Origin: a virus
IMG/VR virus record: IMGVR_UViG_3300023174_000057
Span: 62,001-126,000 of that record
Reading direction: 5' to 3' (one strand)
DNA: 64,000 nucleotides
Made by a program: the position numbers and the translations under genes. Within the stretch, counting starts at the first letter, position 1. The number at the start of each line of letters is the position of its first letter. Positions 903 to 50,926 of this stretch are shown here, one piece after another. The notes beneath the pieces were generated by a model. The model had not been told where the DNA came from. It saw only the letters and a list, made by a program, of their open reading frames with translations, and ran no database searches.

Positions 903-1526
903 ATGGACACCCTGCGATCCAAGGTAATCCGGTTGGCCCACGAGAACCCAGAACTACGTCCTCACCTTCTCCCTCTTCTCAAGACGGCCAGTAGATCCTT
1001 GGATCAACTGCGGGCGGACTTGGAAAAGGTGAGTCAGGTTTCGTTCGCTCGGAACGTGCAAAACAATCGCCGCTACACCCCGGAGCAGAAGGCGAAGGCG
1101 GTGGAGAAGGCCGATGCCATTCTTCAGTCCGGGGAGGTGGACTACCTCCTCAAGATTTCCAACCGTGATACGGACCGCTTGACGGACATCTTGACCTTGA
1201 TCCGTTCGGGGGGGCCGAGGATCGGCACGGCGCATAGCAAGGCTGAAGATGACGCCGAGCGATACGTCCGCGAATTGGAGTTCTTGTCCAAGTTCAGCAC
1301 CCTTCCCGAGATGGTCCCCGTGGACCGTCAATTGATGACGGGCAAGTTCCACACGCGGGATTTCGGGGGTCTGGATACGCTGGCTCAACGGATTCAGTCG
1401 GTCAACACCGAGAATCAACTCAGCCGCGAAGATTCCGAGAGGCTCTTGGCCGAATGGCGTTCCCGCACCTTCGGTCCCGACAGGGGCAGCGACCCCCTCA
1501 ATTTCGGGGATCGTTACCGGGATTGA
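903..1526 (+). CDS. LRSKVIRLAH-motif protein (207 aa)
   Basis: This is the first of five proteins that open with the same roughly 25-residue segment (here LRSKVIRLAHENPELRPHLL). The rest is charged and helix-rich with no recognised enzyme motif and is not alike between members. The N-terminal block therefore looks like a detachable module: a tag, a targeting segment or a processed propeptide. The ATG is chosen because the motif starts three residues after it, as in the other members. The downstream gap holds a degraded gene fragment. Confidence 0.7.
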   Translation: MDTLRSKVIRLAHENPELRPHLLPLLKTASRSLDQLRADLEKVSQVSFARNVQNNRRYTPEQKAKAVEKADAILQSGEVDYLLKISNRDTDRLTDILTLIRSGGPRIGTAHSKAEDDAERYVRELEFLSKFSTLPEMVPVDRQLMTGKFHTRDFGGLDTLAQRIQSVNTENQLSREDSERLLAEWRSRTFGPDRGSDPLNFGDRYRD

Positions 1527-3317: not shown

Positions 3318-3476
3318 ATGAAGACGCTTGGCTCCGCCCCCTTCGTGGTGGGCGGGTGGTACGGCTTCGATTCAAGGGCGGGTACCGCCGCCCGTTCGGT
3401 TGGGAACATCCCCTCTGGGCGGGGGAGCGATCTCGGTTTTCGGTGCTCTCTGCCCGCCCGTCCGCCACGGGCGTAA
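3318..3476 (+). CDS. Array unit 0: divergent FGE-like mini-protein (52 aa)
   Basis: The product contains VGGWYGFDS and ends DLGFRCSLPARPPRA, the same frame of conserved Trp, Gly and GFRC residues as the following units but with many more differences. The ATG is placed by analogy with the other heads; there is no clear ribosome-binding site. Its last bases (CCACGGGCGTAA) are identical to those of unit 6, so the two ends of the array share a terminus. It may be the oldest, degraded member. Confidence 0.55.
   Translation: MKTLGSAPFVVGGWYGFDSRAGTAARSVGNIPSGRGSDLGFRCSLPARPPRA
3469..3476 (+). promoter_or_regulatory. Class I start-proximal element before array unit 1
   Basis: GGGCGTAAGTA lies in ACGGG...CCCGT, an inverted repeat. 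The ATG of unit 1 is at 3485. The TAA is also the stop of unit 0. Units 1-6 could be expressed as one message from here (inference). Confidence 0.5.
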
Positions 3477-3484
3477 GTACCCGT

Positions 3485-3667
3485 ATGAACCCCCCTACCA
3501 AGCCCAAGCCCACGGACACCCGTTACCTCGTCGTTAGCGGCGGCGGTTGGGACAGCTTCGTTCCGTCTTGGGTGCCCGTCGCGTCTCGCGGCTCGAACGT
3601 GCCTGCGAACCGTTACTTCAGCTTGGGGTTTCGGTGCGCGTTGCGGGGAAGGGAACCCCGAGTATGA
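3485..3667 (+). CDS. Array unit 1: FGE/C-type-lectin-like mini-protein (60 aa)
   Basis: The head MNPPTKPKPTDTRYL is followed by the core GGGWDSFVPSW, ASRGSNVPANRYFSLGFRCAL and the tail RGREPRV. The three codons after the core Trp are GAC AGC TTC, and the three after the later Arg are TAC TTC AGC. All end in C, as expected if A residues of AAC codons were randomised. The stop overlaps the next ATG (ATGA). Confidence 0.8.
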   Translation: MNPPTKPKPTDTRYLVVSGGGWDSFVPSWVPVASRGSNVPANRYFSLGFRCALRGREPRV

Positions 3668-3834
3668 ACCCCCCCACCACCAAGCCCACCGACACCGTCT
3701 TTCGCGGCGGCTGTTGGAACTTCAGCGGACCGTCGTGGGTGCGCGCCGCGTCTCGCAACGCGCTCGTGCCTGCTTACCGTGGCAGCGCCTTGGGGTTTCG
3801 GTGCGCGTTGCGGGGAAGGGAACCCCGAACGTGA
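3664..3834 (+). CDS. Array unit 2: FGE/C-type-lectin-like mini-protein (56 aa)
   Basis: Same layout as unit 1 with core RGGCWNFSGPSW and AASRNALVPAYRGSALGF. The variable codons are AAC TTC AGC after Trp and GGC AGC GCC after the late Arg. The start overlaps the stop of unit 1 and the stop overlaps the GTG of unit 3, so translation is coupled along the array. Confidence 0.8.
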   Translation: MNPPTTKPTDTVFRGGCWNFSGPSWVRAASRNALVPAYRGSALGFRCALRGREPRT

Positions 3835-4004
3835 AGCCCACCACCAAGCCCACCGCCGACACCCGTTACCTCGTCATCCGCGGCGGCAGTTGGAACATCC
3901 CGTGGTGGGTGAGCGCCGCGTCTCGCGGCACGCGCGTGCCTGCGTTCCGTGTCTACCTCATCGGGTTTCGGTGCGCGTTGCGGGGAAGGGAACCCCGAGT
4001 ATGA
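3831..4004 (+). CDS. Array unit 3: FGE/C-type-lectin-like mini-protein (57 aa)
   Basis: It starts with GTG in a GTGA overlap. The core RGGSWNIPWWVSAASR is one codon shorter after Trp than its neighbours, a small deletion. Variable codons include AAC ATC, GGC ACG CGC and GTC TAC CTC ATC. The constant tail GFRCALRGREPRV is intact. Confidence 0.8.
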   Translation: MKPTTKPTADTRYLVIRGGSWNIPWWVSAASRGTRVPAFRVYLIGFRCALRGREPRV

Positions 4005-4180
4005 ACCCCCCCACCACCAAGCCCTCCGACACCCTCCTCCGCGTCTTTCGAGGCGGCAGTTGGCTCCACAGCGTACCGTCGAGGGGGCGCGCCGCGTCTC
4101 GCGACACGGACGTGCCTGCGTACCGTCTCAACTACCTCGGTTTTCGGTGCGCCCTTCGGGGAAGGGAACCCCGAGTATGA
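4001..4180 (+). CDS. Array unit 4: FGE/C-type-lectin-like mini-protein (59 aa)
   Basis: The core is RGGSWLHSVPSRGRAASR and then DTDVPAYRLNYLGFRCAL. Variable codons after Trp are CTC CAC AGC; after SR they are GAC ACG GAC; after the late Arg, CTC AAC TAC CTC. The usual Trp-Val of SWV is replaced by Arg-Gly, a change outside the adenine rule. Confidence 0.8.
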   Translation: MNPPTTKPSDTLLRVFRGGSWLHSVPSRGRAASRDTDVPAYRLNYLGFRCALRGREPRV

Positions 4181-4353
4181 ACCCTCCTACCAAGCCCTCC
4201 GACACCCGTCTCCGCGTCTACCGCGGCGGCGGTTGGAGCTTCAACGTGCCGTCGTGGGTGCGCGCCGCGTCTCGCAACGCGAACGGGCCTGCGTACCGTG
4301 GCAGCTTCATCGGGTTCCGGTGCGCGTTGCGGGCGAGGGAACCCCGAGTATGA
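4177..4353 (+). CDS. Array unit 5: FGE/C-type-lectin-like mini-protein (58 aa)
   Basis: The core is RGGGWSFNVPSWVRAASR, then NANGPAYRGSFIGFRCAL. Variable codons are AGC TTC AAC, AAC GCG AAC GGG and GGC AGC TTC ATC. The tail reads RAREPRV instead of RGREPRV. ATGA overlaps join it to both neighbours. Confidence 0.8.
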   Translation: MNPPTKPSDTRLRVYRGGGWSFNVPSWVRAASRNANGPAYRGSFIGFRCALRAREPRV

Positions 4354-4556
4354 AGCCCCCTACCAAGCCCAAGCCCAAGCCCAAGCCCAAGCCCAAGCCC
4401 ACGGACACCCGTCTCCGCGTCTTCCGCGGCGGCAGTTGGATCAGCGACGTACCGTCGTGGGTGCGCGCCGCGTCTCGCAACGCGGACGAGCCTGCGTACC
4501 GTAACATCAACTTGGGGTTTCGGTGCGCGCTGCGGGGAAGGGAACCACGGGCGTAA
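4350..4556 (+). CDS. Array unit 6: FGE/C-type-lectin-like mini-protein (68 aa)
   Basis: The head is longer because the hexamer AAGCCC is repeated six times (4365-4400), adding Lys-Pro pairs in frame. The core is RGGSWISDVPSWVRAASR, then NADEPAYRNINLGFRCAL. Variable codons are ATC AGC GAC, AAC GCG GAC GAG and AAC ATC AAC, the most adenine-rich set in the array and so perhaps the least mutated copy. It ends REPRA with the class I element as its stop. Confidence 0.8.
   Translation: MKPPTKPKPKPKPKPKPTDTRLRVFRGGSWISDVPSWVRAASRNADEPAYRNINLGFRCALRGREPRA
4365..4400 (+). repeat. Hexanucleotide repeat (AAGCCC)x6 in array unit 6
   Basis: Six perfect AAGCCC units encode (Lys-Pro)6 in the head of unit 6. 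Unit 1 has two units and the other heads one or none. The difference suggests replication slippage that keeps the reading frame. Confidence 0.9.
4549..4556 (+). promoter_or_regulatory. Class I start-proximal element GGGCGTAA
   Basis: CCACGGGCGTAAGTACC is the same string as at the end of array unit 0. It provides the stop of unit 6 and lies nine bases before the ATG at 4565. Confidence 0.5.
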
Positions 4557-5924: not shown

Positions 5925-5966
5925 CGGTAGGGCACCTATCCCCCACCGGGGGTAGGAGCCCTACCG
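5925..5966 (+). promoter_or_regulatory. Class II stem-loop before the gene at 5966
   Basis: An outer inverted repeat CGGTAGGGC (5925-5933) / GCCCTACCG (5958-5966) encloses an inner one, CCTATCCCCC / GGGGGTAGG. The whole forms a long hairpin whose last base is the first base of the GTG start codon. It is the clearest example of the CCTATC...GGTAGG class. It may be a promoter with a stem-loop, or a terminator-like boundary with a start-masking role (inference). Confidence 0.6.
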
Positions 5967-6472
5967 TGACGTCTCTCCGTTCCAGCGTCATCCGCCTCGC
6001 CCACGCACAACCGGCCCTGCGCCCGCACCTCCTACCCCTCCTCAAGACGGCAGACGACGACGGCGACTACACCGACGAGGAGTACGCCTTCCTCCTGTGG
6101 ACGCGGAAGTACGAGCGCCGACAAGAGGCCGTGCTTCGCAAGTGGGAGGACAAGTACGAGCGGGAACTGAACGCCGTGGGTGACGGGTTGATCGCTGACC
6201 TCGAAGCCCTCAAGGCGCTGGTGCGCTTCTGGTTCTGGCAGCGCAAGGGCAACTACCGGGACACCCCCGGCGAGGAGGCCCCCAACTTCAAGGGGGCCGT
6301 GGACGCGATGTTCCACCGCCGCCGCAAGGCCCTTGTGGAAGTGAAGGACATCACGGATCGCATGGTCGCACGGGTCGCGGCGATCTCGGGTTCCGCCCTC
6401 TTTGGGGACGACTTCCTTGATGACCTGAACCGATTGGTGTCCGAGTACGAGCGGGAGTTCCAATCCCGGTAG
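5966..6472 (+). CDS. LRSxVIRLAH-motif protein (168 aa)
   Basis: It begins LRSSVIRLAHAQPALRPHLL, the third member of the N-terminal-motif set. The remainder is strongly charged and mostly helical, with a coiled-coil-like segment of Glu/Arg/Lys. No enzyme motif is visible. The GTG start is fixed by the stem-loop immediately upstream and by the motif position. Confidence 0.65.
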   Translation: MTSLRSSVIRLAHAQPALRPHLLPLLKTADDDGDYTDEEYAFLLWTRKYERRQEAVLRKWEDKYERELNAVGDGLIADLEALKALVRFWFWQRKGNYRDTPGEEAPNFKGAVDAMFHRRRKALVEVKDITDRMVARVAAISGSALFGDDFLDDLNRLVSEYEREFQSR

Positions 6473-7501: not shown

Positions 7502-9334
7502 ATGACTCGACCCGTGACTGCCCTCTTCCAGCCCACCGTCATCCTCCTTGCAGAAATGTCTCTCGTCCCTCAAGGTCTCGATGACCTCGTGGAGTGGGTC
7601 GGGGACTACCGCCCGGAGTGCCTCCCCGGTGAGAGCCCCACGGGCATGGACCTGTTCCCCCACGGTGGTGCGCGCGACGACGGGGGTGTGCTCACGGGCA
7701 ATGAGCTCTTGGTCGAGCTCGCGGGCCGAAATTGTTATGACAAGGAGACCGAGGTACTCACGGAAACTGGGTGGGTGAAGTTCCCGGACCTCCCCCAAGG
7801 TGTGCCCATCGCCACGTACAACCAAGGTACCGGGATGGTCGAGTATCAAGTACCGACGGACTACATCCAGAAGAAGTACACCGGGGCGATGTATCGGGTG
7901 GATTCCCGGTCAGTCTCTCTTCGTGTGACCGAAGACCATGACATCTGGCATGGGGATCGGAGCCGCTGGTGGAGCTTCTCACCGGCTCGCGAGGTGGCTG
8001 GCCATTCCTACAGGCTCCTCCGTACGGCACCCTATGCAGGGGATGGGTTCGTGGAGCCCTTCTGGGAGGTTCCCACTGACAAGTCTCTGGCATGGGCTAC
8101 GTTTCTCGGGTATCTCGTGACCGAGGGTTATGTGTTCGACGGGCGCGGGAGGGGCACTGGATCAAGGGTCACTCTTTTCCAGAAGCCTGCGAAGGCAGGT
8201 CCCATTCTCGCGTGTCTGGCAGAACTGGGTTTCACCCCCCGTGTCCAGACCGATGCGCGGAATGGTGTTCTCCAGATCACTGTGGGGAACACCAAACTCG
8301 CACAGGCACTCCTCCCTTGGGCGGGGGTGCCGTCTCATCACAAGCGTCTCCCCAACCATGTTTTCAACTGGCCGATGGGTGTTCGGGCTGCGCTGGTCAA
8401 CGCCATGATGGCTGGTGATGGGACCGTCACCAATGGGCACCGGGTCTTCTACACGTCTTCACCGGGGCTCGCTGAAGACATGCAGCGCCTCATCACTCTC
8501 TCCGGGAAACCGGGGTCTCTGCACAACGTCCAGAGGGTGCAACGGGAGACCGGGTTCTCGTCGCGTCACCCGAGCTACACTGTTCGGGAGTGTGGACGGA
8601 ACGAAGTCACCATCAACAAGCACGGTGTGGCCCATGACGGGTGGGAGGAGACATCAGATGAGGATGTCTACTGCGTGACGGTGCCCAATCGAACCCTTCT
8701 CGTCCGCCGTGACCGGAAGGTGGTGGTGTGTGCAAATTGCTACCACTCCTACGGGGCCAAGGCGGGCAAGAAGTCCAACGCCCAGTACATCGCCCACACC
8801 CAGAGCGGGGCCGTCCCGCACCGCTCGATCATGTACCACGCCAAGATGACCTTCTTCGTCGGCGGCATCTCTCGGCGGGTCAGTCACGAGCTCATCCGCC
8901 ACTACGTCGGCGCGGACAGGTCCGAGGAAGGTTCACCGTCGCAGGAGTCCACCCGGTACACTCACCACCCGGGGCACTTCGTCGTCCCCCCGAAGATGGC
9001 CGAGGACGGTAACGCCGTGGAGCAGTTCATGGCGTCGATGAGCTCCGCGTACACCGCGTACCACGAGTACATCGAGCGGGAGGTCGAAGCCTATCGTGCG
9101 GCATCGGGCGAGGAGCCCAAGGGGCTGTCCCGCAAGCGCATCTATGAGGCGGCGGCGGGGTTGCTCCCGATGCAAGCTGCCACGTCCCTCGTCTGGACGG
9201 CGAACCCGGTGAGCCTCGCGAAGATGTTTTTGGAGCGTACGGACGAGAGCTCCGACGCGGAGTTCCGGCGTCTCGCCCTGCACTGGCAGAAGTTGTGTGT
9301 CGCCCGGTGGCCCAATCTGTTTCCGAGGGCGTAA
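7502..9334 (+). CDS. thyX: Flavin-dependent thymidylate synthase with in-frame intein
   Basis: The host protein is ThyX, which methylates dUMP to dTMP using methylene-tetrahydrofolate and FAD/NADPH. The C-extein contains RHYVGADRSEEGSPSQESTRY, an enlarged form of the RHRxxSxNExSxRY signature. An intein of 335 residues (78-412) interrupts it after AGRN. Splicing would join 77 and 198 residues to a 275-residue enzyme. A TAGGGT hexamer lies six bases before the ATG. It supplies thymidylate for phage DNA synthesis. Confidence 0.9.
   Translation: MTRPVTALFQPTVILLAEMSLVPQGLDDLVEWVGDYRPECLPGESPTGMDLFPHGGARDDGGVLTGNELLVELAGRNCYDKETEVLTETGWVKFPDLPQGVPIATYNQGTGMVEYQVPTDYIQKKYTGAMYRVDSRSVSLRVTEDHDIWHGDRSRWWSFSPAREVAGHSYRLLRTAPYAGDGFVEPFWEVPTDKSLAWATFLGYLVTEGYVFDGRGRGTGSRVTLFQKPAKAGPILACLAELGFTPRVQTDARNGVLQITVGNTKLAQALLPWAGVPSHHKRLPNHVFNWPMGVRAALVNAMMAGDGTVTNGHRVFYTSSPGLAEDMQRLITLSGKPGSLHNVQRVQRETGFSSRHPSYTVRECGRNEVTINKHGVAHDGWEETSDEDVYCVTVPNRTLLVRRDRKVVVCANCYHSYGAKAGKKSNAQYIAHTQSGAVPHRSIMYHAKMTFFVGGISRRVSHELIRHYVGADRSEEGSPSQESTRYTHHPGHFVVPPKMAEDGNAVEQFMASMSSAYTAYHEYIEREVEAYRAASGEEPKGLSRKRIYEAAAGLLPMQAATSLVWTANPVSLAKMFLERTDESSDAEFRRLALHWQKLCVARWPNLFPRA
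7733..8737 (+). mobile_element. ThyX intein with LAGLIDADG endonuclease
   Basis: The intein starts CYDKETEVLTETGWVKF and ends VVVCAN before a Cys(+1). The TxxH box appears as VTEDHDIWH. Two LAGLIDADG-like helices, LGYLVTEGY and MMAGDGTVT, mark a homing endonuclease. The penultimate residue is Ala where most inteins have His, a known but uncommon variant. The coding sequence is visibly less GC-rich at its edges than the exteins, suggesting later arrival. Confidence 0.88.
9327..9334 (+). promoter_or_regulatory. Class I start-proximal element GGGCGTAA
   Basis: It forms the stop of thyX and lies ten bases before the GTG at 9345. Confidence 0.4.
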
Positions 9335-48466: not shown

Positions 48467-50926
48467 ATGGCCTCGATTCAGTACAACAAGATCCTCGCAG
48501 TTCCCTCTTCGGGCCTCAAGAACCCGGCGGCTCCCAAGGCCGTTGACAGCCTCGCCCTGTCTCTCGCTGAGACGAGCATTCAGCTCGGCGCGAGCGGCTT
48601 CTTCAAGCTGCTCGACAGCGCGGGCGACAGCCTCCTCAACGCCCAGAACTCGGCCATCTCGTTCGCCCCGGACGCGAGCTTCTCGCAGGACCTCACGGTC
48701 AGCGGCGACACCATCCTCGCGGCCCTCTCGGCCACGAACGCCTCGTTCTCGGGCACGCTCGGCGTGACCGGGGCGTCCACCCTCGGCGTGCTCCACGCGG
48801 GCGCGACGGACGTGGACAGCCTCTCGGTGGACGTGGACGCCTCGGTGGGCGGCGAGCTCACGGTCAGCGGCGACTCGAACCTCGCGGACCTGTACGCGGC
48901 GGCGGCTTCGTTCTCGGGTGACGTGTCCGTCTCGGGCAACCTGACGGTCAACGGCAAGGTCACCACGATCAACTCGGACCAGATCATGGTCCACGATCCG
49001 ATCATGGTGCTGGCCGACGGCAACACGGCGGACACCTTCGACATCGGTTTCGTGGGCAAGCGCAAGAACGGCGCGGCCTTCGAGAACGTGTCGTTCTTCT
49101 ACGACCAGTCGGCGGGCGAGTTCGCCGTCGCCAACGTCGGCACGACCTACGGTCAGGACGGCAGCAACAACTACCAGTCCCTCACCGTGGCGTCCTACAT
49201 GGACCTCCACATCGCGGACCTCGCTGCGGCCAGCGCGGACTTCTCTGCGAACGTGGCGATCTCGGGCACCCTCTCGGCGGGCAACACCACCGTTGCCGAC
49301 CTGACGGCTGAGGACGGCACGTTCTCGGGCGACATCGCAGCGGTCAACGCGACCCTCTCGGGCAACATCTCCGCGGTGGACGGCACGTTCTCGGGCGACA
49401 TCTCGGCGGACGACATCTCGGCGGCGACGGCGACCCTCTCGGGTGCCCTCTCGGCGGCTTCGGCCTCGATCTCTGGCGCGGCCACCATCGGCTCTACGCT
49501 CGACGTGACGGGTGCCCTCTCGGCGGCTTCGGCCAGCATCACGGGCGCGATGTCTTCGGGCTCCGTCTCGACGGGGAACATCAGCGCCACGGGCTCGGCC
49601 ACCGTTGCCGGTGCGCTCTCGGCGGGCGCGACGGACGTGGACAGCCTCGCCGTGGACGGCAACGCCTCGGTGGGTGGGAACATCACCGCCGTCGATGCGA
49701 CCCTCTCGGGTGACCTCGCCGCCGTGGACGCGGCCCTCTCGGGCGACCTCTCGGCGGTTGACGCCACCCTCTCGGGTGACCTCGCCGCCGTGGACGGCAC
49801 GTTCTCGGGCAACCTCGCCGCTGTGGATGCGACCCTCTCGGGTGACCTCGCTGCGGTGGACGCCACCCTCTCGGGCGACCTCGCCGCCGTCGATGCGACC
49901 CTCTCGGGTGACCTCTCGGCTGTGGACGCGGCCCTCTCGGGCAACGCCACCATCGCGGGTACGCTCGGCGTGACGGGAGCCCTCTCGGGCTCTTCGGCCT
50001 CGTTCAGCGCCAACATCGCTGCGGTTGACGCCACCCTCTCGGGCGACCTCGCTGCGGTTGACGCCACCCTCTCGGGCGACCTCACGGTCGCGGGTGCGGC
50101 GGACCTCGACGCCCTCACCGCTTCGGGCGCGGTTCACTTCACGGCGACTGACGATGTCCTCTCCATCACCATCCCCGCGATGGCGGTCACCGAGAACTAC
50201 GCTCTCGAAGTCGAGGGCGGCGTCCACATGGACGGCCACCTCTACCTCGCCAAGACGGGCGGCTCGCTCAACCTGAGCAGTTCTCCCGTCACCCCCGACT
50301 TCATGGTCGATGGCAAGTCGGTCTTCGCCGCGCGTCTGCAATCGGGCTCGGCGTCGAACCCCGACTTCATGGTGAACGGTCACGCCCGGTTCAACTCGGG
50401 CTTCGCGGTGGACAGCGAGGAAGTGGCCTCGATCCGCGTCGGCAACGTGGCGGGCGACGCCATCTCGTTCTCGACGGGCACGGACGGCCACATCCACCTC
50501 GACGCTGCCAAGATCCTCCGTCTCTCGGCGGATCAGGGCATCGCGACGAACCACACCGCGAACGCCTCGGGCGCGGTGGCGGCGAACCTCGCCGTCTCGG
50601 TCAACGCCACGGGGGACTTCGTCGCCGTGCGCGCCAACGAGAAGAACGCCATCGTCCTCGGCGTGTCGCTCGCCAGCATCGCTGGTGCGTCGTCGGCCAA
50701 GGGCAAGGTTGCCGAGTTCGGCAAGGTGGAGATCGCCGTCGAAGGCGGGGCCAGCATCGCCATTGGCGACCTCCTGTACCTGTCGGCCAGCGAGGCGGGC
50801 AAGGTCACGAACGTCGTCCCGGTTGACGCGGACAGCACCGCGTACCTCATGGGCAAGGCCCTCCAAGCCCCCGTCGCGGGCAAGGTCAGCATCGCGCTGC
50901 ACCGCCAGTTCCTCTACAACAACTGA
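48467..50926 (+). CDS. Long repeat-containing tail-fibre-like protein (819 aa)
   Basis: The N-terminal third carries phage-fibre blocks (DVSVSGNLTVNGKVTTINSD, IMVHDPIMVLAD). Residues about 280-545 consist mainly of an 11-residue repeat of the type AAVDATLSGDL, predicted to build a trimeric beta-roll or helix. The C-terminal 120 residues (GDFVAVRANEKN, ASIAIGDLLYLS) form a globular tip like other virion proteins here. A strong terminator follows. It is probably a fibre or head fibre. Confidence 0.7.
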   Translation: MASIQYNKILAVPSSGLKNPAAPKAVDSLALSLAETSIQLGASGFFKLLDSAGDSLLNAQNSAISFAPDASFSQDLTVSGDTILAALSATNASFSGTLGVTGASTLGVLHAGATDVDSLSVDVDASVGGELTVSGDSNLADLYAAAASFSGDVSVSGNLTVNGKVTTINSDQIMVHDPIMVLADGNTADTFDIGFVGKRKNGAAFENVSFFYDQSAGEFAVANVGTTYGQDGSNNYQSLTVASYMDLHIADLAAASADFSANVAISGTLSAGNTTVADLTAEDGTFSGDIAAVNATLSGNISAVDGTFSGDISADDISAATATLSGALSAASASISGAATIGSTLDVTGALSAASASITGAMSSGSVSTGNISATGSATVAGALSAGATDVDSLAVDGNASVGGNITAVDATLSGDLAAVDAALSGDLSAVDATLSGDLAAVDGTFSGNLAAVDATLSGDLAAVDATLSGDLAAVDATLSGDLSAVDAALSGNATIAGTLGVTGALSGSSASFSANIAAVDATLSGDLAAVDATLSGDLTVAGAADLDALTASGAVHFTATDDVLSITIPAMAVTENYALEVEGGVHMDGHLYLAKTGGSLNLSSSPVTPDFMVDGKSVFAARLQSGSASNPDFMVNGHARFNSGFAVDSEEVASIRVGNVAGDAISFSTGTDGHIHLDAAKILRLSADQGIATNHTANASGAVAANLAVSVNATGDFVAVRANEKNAIVLGVSLASIAGASSAKGKVAEFGKVEIAVEGGASIAIGDLLYLSASEAGKVTNVVPVDADSTAYLMGKALQAPVAGKVSIALHRQFLYNN
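49684..50085 (+). repeat. 33-base coding repeats of the fibre
   Basis: At least eight consecutive 33-base units (GCC GTC GAT GCG ACC CTC TCG GGT GAC CTC GCC type) differ mostly at synonymous positions, with related units upstream to about 49320. Near-identical units invite slippage and length variation. Confidence 0.85.

Follow-up and report, generated by a model that had tools for sequence, protein, structure and literature searches.

Phage arrays of split FGE-domain mini-genes carry an adenine-directed signature matching a bacterial DGR template

Split-domain mini-genes at the locus

The window analyzed here is a 64,000-nt stretch of viral DNA, bases 62001–126000 of a 166,764-bp IMG/VR record (G000). 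Terminase and portal matches indicate that the source record is a tailed phage. Seven small genes, all on the plus strand, lie at 3318–4556: six tight units and one divergent unit (Table 1). The tight units are joined to one another by five 4-nt stop–start overlaps, ATGA or GTGA. All window units point in one direction, and no cassette inversion was seen. The tight units (56–68 aa) are 68–78% identical to the last unit and match the PF03781 (FGE-sulfatase) profile only at about positions 197–254 of 255; each encodes just the C-terminal ~45 residues of an FGE/C-type-lectin (CLec) domain. By this profile match the variable region (VR) has the CLec/FGE fold of targets of diversity-generating retroelements (DGRs), and it occupies nearly the whole mini-gene. 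The initial annotation had proposed the span 3318–4556 and the division into six tight and one divergent C-terminal-only units, which the ORF coordinates and the PF03781 match confirm. The chained, self-standing VR mini-genes that it described are a real layout, recurring in three other phage records.

Table 1. Mini-genes and associated features in the window (plain coordinates) and elsewhere in the same record (L-numbered coordinates)
Feature	Location	Strand	Remarks
Divergent FGE C-terminal mini-gene	3318..3476	+	52 aa; adenine signature absent
Mini-gene 1	3485..3667	+	60 aa; VR core 3527-3640
Inverted repeat CGGGG-AAGGGAA-CCCCG	3644..3660	+	3 nt past VR core of unit 1
Mini-gene 2	3664..3834	+	56 aa; VR core 3694-3807; variable codons identical to copy L001:9226-9393(-)
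Same inverted repeat, CGGGG-AAGGGAA-CCCCG	3811..3827	+	after VR core of unit 2
Mini-gene 3	3831..4004	+	57 aa; VR core 3870-3977, with a 6-nt deletion inside
Mini-gene 4	4001..4180	+	59 aa; VR core 4040-4153
Same inverted repeat, 6-bp stem	4156..4174	+	after VR core of unit 4
Mini-gene 5	4177..4353	+	58 aa; VR core 4213-4326
Mini-gene 6	4350..4556	+	68 aa; VR core 4416-4529
(CCAAGC)6.5 tract	4363..4401	+	encodes KPKPKP linker of mini-gene 6
More divergent mini-gene copies	L001:3434-4058	+	same record
Further mini-gene copies	L001:9056-9393	-	same record
N-terminal FGE gene	L001:9566-10387	-	273 aa; profile positions 14-192, E = 2e-31, match ends there
Further mini-gene copies	L002:14973-15304	-	same record

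The record also carries an N-terminal FGE gene, which the initial annotation missed. Copies at L001:9056-9564 directly follow it, its stop overlapping the next start (TAGTG). With the N-part in one gene and the C-part in mini-genes, the FGE domain is therefore split; a full domain in one chain is not found here, as the two profile matches cover separate ranges. On a single FGE chain (2aft_X) the N-part corresponds to residues 115–218 and the mini-genes to 232–281, adjacent and non-overlapping, and the mini-gene profile also matches residues 249–293 of TvpA (2y3c). IMG/VR records G001 (265,895 bp), G002 (55,643 bp) and G003 (105,516 bp) show this split too, there with TGA as stop codon. In G000 and G001 the mini-gene immediately following the N-part shows good conservation and lacks the adenine pattern described below; those further along vary. 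In G003 one mini-gene runs in frame into the N-part gene downstream of it (L016:10117-11202), giving a circularly permuted full domain, which hints that the halves belong together. AF2 structure prediction gave low-confidence models from alignments that were too shallow (mini-protein, pLDDT 46; N-part, about 82 for the first 110 residues and mostly <55 for the FGE portion). Foldseek matched these models weakly to FGE/EgtB folds, and they may be read only as consistent with an incomplete fold.

Divergent mini-genes at L001:3434-4058(+) and L012:4089-4220 have GFRTHL in place of GFRCAL, are chained stop-on-start and lack the adenine pattern. The mini-gene layout thus extends wider than the DGR signature. 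A search with the N-terminal FGE gene returned only ordinary 45–57% relatives, in most Polyangiales, and did not single out the bacterial genome KT_bin-2017 discussed below. One unit searched against GenBank phages had no match, and against plasmids a single match, to an ordinary FGE gene. A conserved 17-mer hit 43 stretches in IMG/VR, with units only in the three phages already known.

Other features of these records include several unrelated ORFs (window 903-1526, 2338-2792 and 5966-6472) that share the initial motif LRSKVIRLAHENPELRPHLLPLLK, which may act as a signal for targeting or cleavage. Repeats of 33 bp at window 49323-50083 encode SGDLAAVDATL-type repeats, perhaps of a tail fibre. 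Inteins lie in a ThyX-like gene (by reading; window 7502-9334), the terminase large subunit (L005:3362-6556) and a Volactin-family gene (HNH type; L007:10441-12687). A phage-encoded GroEL-type chaperonin (L002:3283-4872) and a large vWA-domain protein (L007:5234-7699) are also present.

Adenine signature and its template

The signature was analyzed in 25 tight units from the four phage records. Their variable codons comprise nine NNC, one NCG, one GNG, one GNN (before CCG) and one NGT. Of 223 NNC-type codons, 215 end in C. Amino acid content and the phages' own codon usage would predict 160.6 (z = 9), and codon bias alone is rejected on this ground. Synonymous codons are set by site, not by amino acid: serine is AGC in 23/23 cases at NNC-type (AAC) sites and TCG at the NCG (ACG) site, and the site likewise determines whether glycine is GGC, GGA or GGG and whether valine is GTC, GTA or GTG. 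Selection alone is therefore rejected as the source of the pattern, and deaminase editing is rejected since A changes to G, T and C. All 24 columns with at least three recurrent bases contain A. DGR-type adenine mutagenesis is the only explanation we found that fits the tight units.

Amino acids at AAC sites are Asn (26%), Tyr (17%), Asp (15%) and Ser (10%), a substitution spectrum resembling that of the BPP-1 enzyme (PMC12875486). At these sites second-position C is nearly absent (2/223) and first-position C is common (29/223); the scarcity may reflect selection or enzyme bias.

The NNC, NCG and GNG patterns of the initial annotation hold beyond codon bias and extend to all 25 units. The codon before CCG, which it treated as an exception, is instead GNA/GNN and fits a GAA codon present in the bacterial template. 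Its description of the array as DGR-like is supported for the six tight units; the adenine pattern is absent from the divergent unit 3318-3476.

A template written from the phage units alone has AAC, ACG, GAG, GAA and AGT codons (core TGG AAC AAC AAC GAA CCG TCG). Scanning GTDB genomes gave a match in the MAG KT_bin-2017 (G005), where the predicted template is found at 30/30 bases at a contig end (G005:C145:6208-6237); a reversed-pattern control gave no match. KT_bin-2017 is assigned to the Polyangiales because its order also contains Sorangium cellulosum So0157-2 (G169). Contig C145 ends within the template, leaving 42 nt assembled and the 3′ half missing. Compared with these 42 nt, five window units of equal length differ at 36/55 adenines and 9/155 other positions (Fisher p = 2e-18), as expected from the earlier proposal that template adenines are mutated. 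Across 21 phage units, 131/231 adenines and 31/651 other bases are changed (p = 1e-61), and the bias is present in every phage separately. The full predicted template gives 276/504 adenines versus 79/1638 other positions changed, a partly circular test because adenines beyond the 42 nt were deduced partly from the units themselves. Mini-gene 6 is the window unit nearest the template (9/24 adenines and 1/78 other bases changed).

The same MAG holds a corresponding target. On contig C407, a caspase–FGE gene has the same VR as its C-terminus, differing from the phage-derived template at 12/24 adenines and 0/78 other positions (p = 2e-9); this gene was not used in building the template, so the test is independent. 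Against phage unit G001:261536 it differs at 11/24 adenines and 0/78 other positions. Upstream of the template on C145 are an Avd gene (51% to an Avd beside another DGR) and then a DGR reverse transcriptase (RT) C-terminus. This locus (G005:C145:5547-6237) is degenerate: Avd, about 87 C-terminal RT residues out of frame with the core missing, and the template. No intact DGR RT was found in KT_bin-2017, and its two other RTs look retron-like. In about ten genomes of the same order, FGE-type templates lie on the same contig as an RT and have asparagine runs at the same positions.

The phage records contain no such machinery. An RVT_1 search (E <= 10) and an RT motif scan found nothing in the 594 kb of the four array-bearing records (G000–G003), nor did tblastn with DGR RTs and Avd; an RVT_1 search of two more relatives was empty as well. 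No complete DGR, with RT and Avd in the same genome, is thus found in G000–G003. Template-like copies are missing from the phages as well: no aligned copy shows fewer than 9 changes at the 24 adenines. IMG/VR scans with the all-adenine template pattern and with masked templates of two other Polyangiales DGR types gave no match. The initial annotation had seen no RT near the array and asked for a whole-genome search for RT and template. All three RT searches were empty across the entire 166,764-bp record, and a template matching at non-adenine sites is located in the bacterium, not in the phages. Because the template sits there, its absence and that of an RT from the record point to a trans-acting host DGR and not against a DGR.

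Proposed action in trans and competing readings

We think it probable that a DGR encoded by the host diversifies the mini-genes in trans, as remote targets located on the phage genome. A bacterial host, a Polyangiales-type myxobacterium, would supply template, Avd and presumably an intact RT. During infection, reverse transcription of host template RNA would place random bases at adenine positions. The resulting cDNA would then take the place of VRs in phage mini-genes, in trans, and return every non-adenine position to the template sequence. Each product would be a free C-terminal half of the FGE/CLec domain, which probably pairs with the separately encoded N-half. A single scaffold would then present many exchangeable binding faces, serving to bind the host surface or to blunt the host's own FGE-type sensors.

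The LCHDSYC motif of S. coelicolor FGE aligns to variable residues, and the units lack the active-site Cys pair there, after GGS[YW]. Binding is therefore more likely than catalysis. Different mini-proteins may complete the phage N-part, each adding another face, or they may interfere with host FGE sensors. In a version of the latter that is compatible with trans diversification, the mini-proteins are decoys or dominant negatives that copy the hypervariable face of host caspase/kinase–FGE sensors. The bacterial gene with this VR is indeed a caspase–FGE fusion, and FGE/DGR host proteins have been proposed as hypervariable effectors against invaders (PMC7159879; PMC10907252). Interference alone leaves the separate phage N-half and the many different faces unaccounted for. 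We consider the decoy reading possible but unlikely.

Comparison across phages bears on how the VRs came to be alike. Only three genes are detectably shared by G000 and G003, at ~47% amino acid identity, and third positions of their N-part genes are 56% identical. Between the two phages, the VRs differ at non-adenine sites by a median of 5% (minimum 0), as much as within G000 (4.5%), and at adenine sites by ~65%. The bacterial VR is just as close to both, differing by a median of 3%. A shared, repeatedly copied template would explain this likeness, the main alternative being repeated capture of host VRs. Some of the non-adenine differences group by array (GCG/CGG/CTG in G001, for example), which suggests copies that were not recently reset or that derive from another template. 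Units at G001:41779, 252284, ~262900 and 263262-263605 have a head or tail in common, and their middles differ at adenine sites alone; either partial homing or cassette-to-cassette recombination may account for these mixed units.

Capture would make the arrays static: already diversified host VRs, acquired by recombination and then shuffled with no retrohoming into phage DNA. We regard this as rather improbable. Homing could not be told apart from recombination with host VRs, and the mixed G001 units and the identical variable codons of window unit 2 and L001:9226-9393 suit shuffling, although under trans homing the identical pair means that mutation-free copying also occurs. Against it, units have phage-specific flanks in common on both sides of the VR, and identical non-adenine bases in unrelated phages would require repeated recent capture.

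Most units have an inverted repeat, a candidate target hairpin, 1–3 nt past the VR core, with a 5–8 bp stem (up to 8 bp in G001). BPP-1 needs a target hairpin at that place, and its IMH plus hairpin are enough to direct the DGR to a foreign gene, even on a replicating phage (PMC3240598). The VR alone suggests the putative phage–host link; a portal-protein search of the bacterial order, run without a positive control, was empty.

It is quite improbable that the phages encode their own DGR, with RT and template, in genome regions missing from fragmentary records. The records are all classed linear and may be incomplete, and known phage DGRs act in cis. The four array-bearing records, including one of 265,895 bp, and two more relatives yielded none, and a matching template and target were located in a bacterium. 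Lastly, an ordinary duplicated family under positive selection without a DGR would suit the divergent mini-genes (3318-3476; L001:3434-4058), which vary without the adenine pattern, but is refuted for the tight units by site-fixed synonymous codons, A in 24/24 hypervariable columns and the discovery of the predicted template, and its probability overall is negligible.

With trans diversification as the favoured reading, a broader proposal is plausible at middling confidence: phages of at least two unrelated lineages would exploit a host DGR, with VR half-domain arrays swapped onto a phage N-half and diversified in trans by the host's antigen-sensor mutator.

Relation to known DGRs and implications

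DGRs are regarded as serving the genome in which they reside. The closest parallels are remote targets in cyanobacteria (PMC7517822) and Thiohalocapsa PB-PSB1 (PMC10907252), where CLec/FGE VRs also lie away from RT and template, show adenine-only differences and have been proposed to be acted on in trans. There, one cellular genome contains both target and DGR, and the VR forms the end of a full-length gene; in the present case the targets are stand-alone tandem phage genes and the template is bacterial. The Mtd DGR of Bordetella phage BPP-1 shares adenine mutagenesis of a phage CLec VR and a hairpin just past the VR, but has its own RT, Avd and template repeat (TR), with a single VR ending a full gene (PMC3240598). 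Treponema denticola TvpA (2y3c) has an FGE-type CLec fold with a C-terminal VR, in a single chain. FGE-type DGRs of Polyangiales (G134:C164, G086:C102, G108:C228 and others) have the template GGSWNNN..R.A.RNxN.P.NRNNN.GFRC, with the same variable positions as here, but are ordinary cellular DGRs with an RT near the template. Two-target phage DGRs, e.g. tentaclins, similarly have more than one CLec target per phage, but RT and TR are in the phage and the targets are whole proteins (PMC10743442). Searches of the open-access literature yielded remote targets within one genome and no case of a bacterial DGR serving VRs on a phage.

Surveys that demand an RT beside the VR would overlook such targets. 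Tandem split half-domains would be a new route to multiply DGR diversity. If host DGRs serve phage genes, the phages against which a putative bacterial antigen-sensing system may be directed can draw on the diversity it makes, and a bacterial DGR template could predict which phages infect that bacterium.
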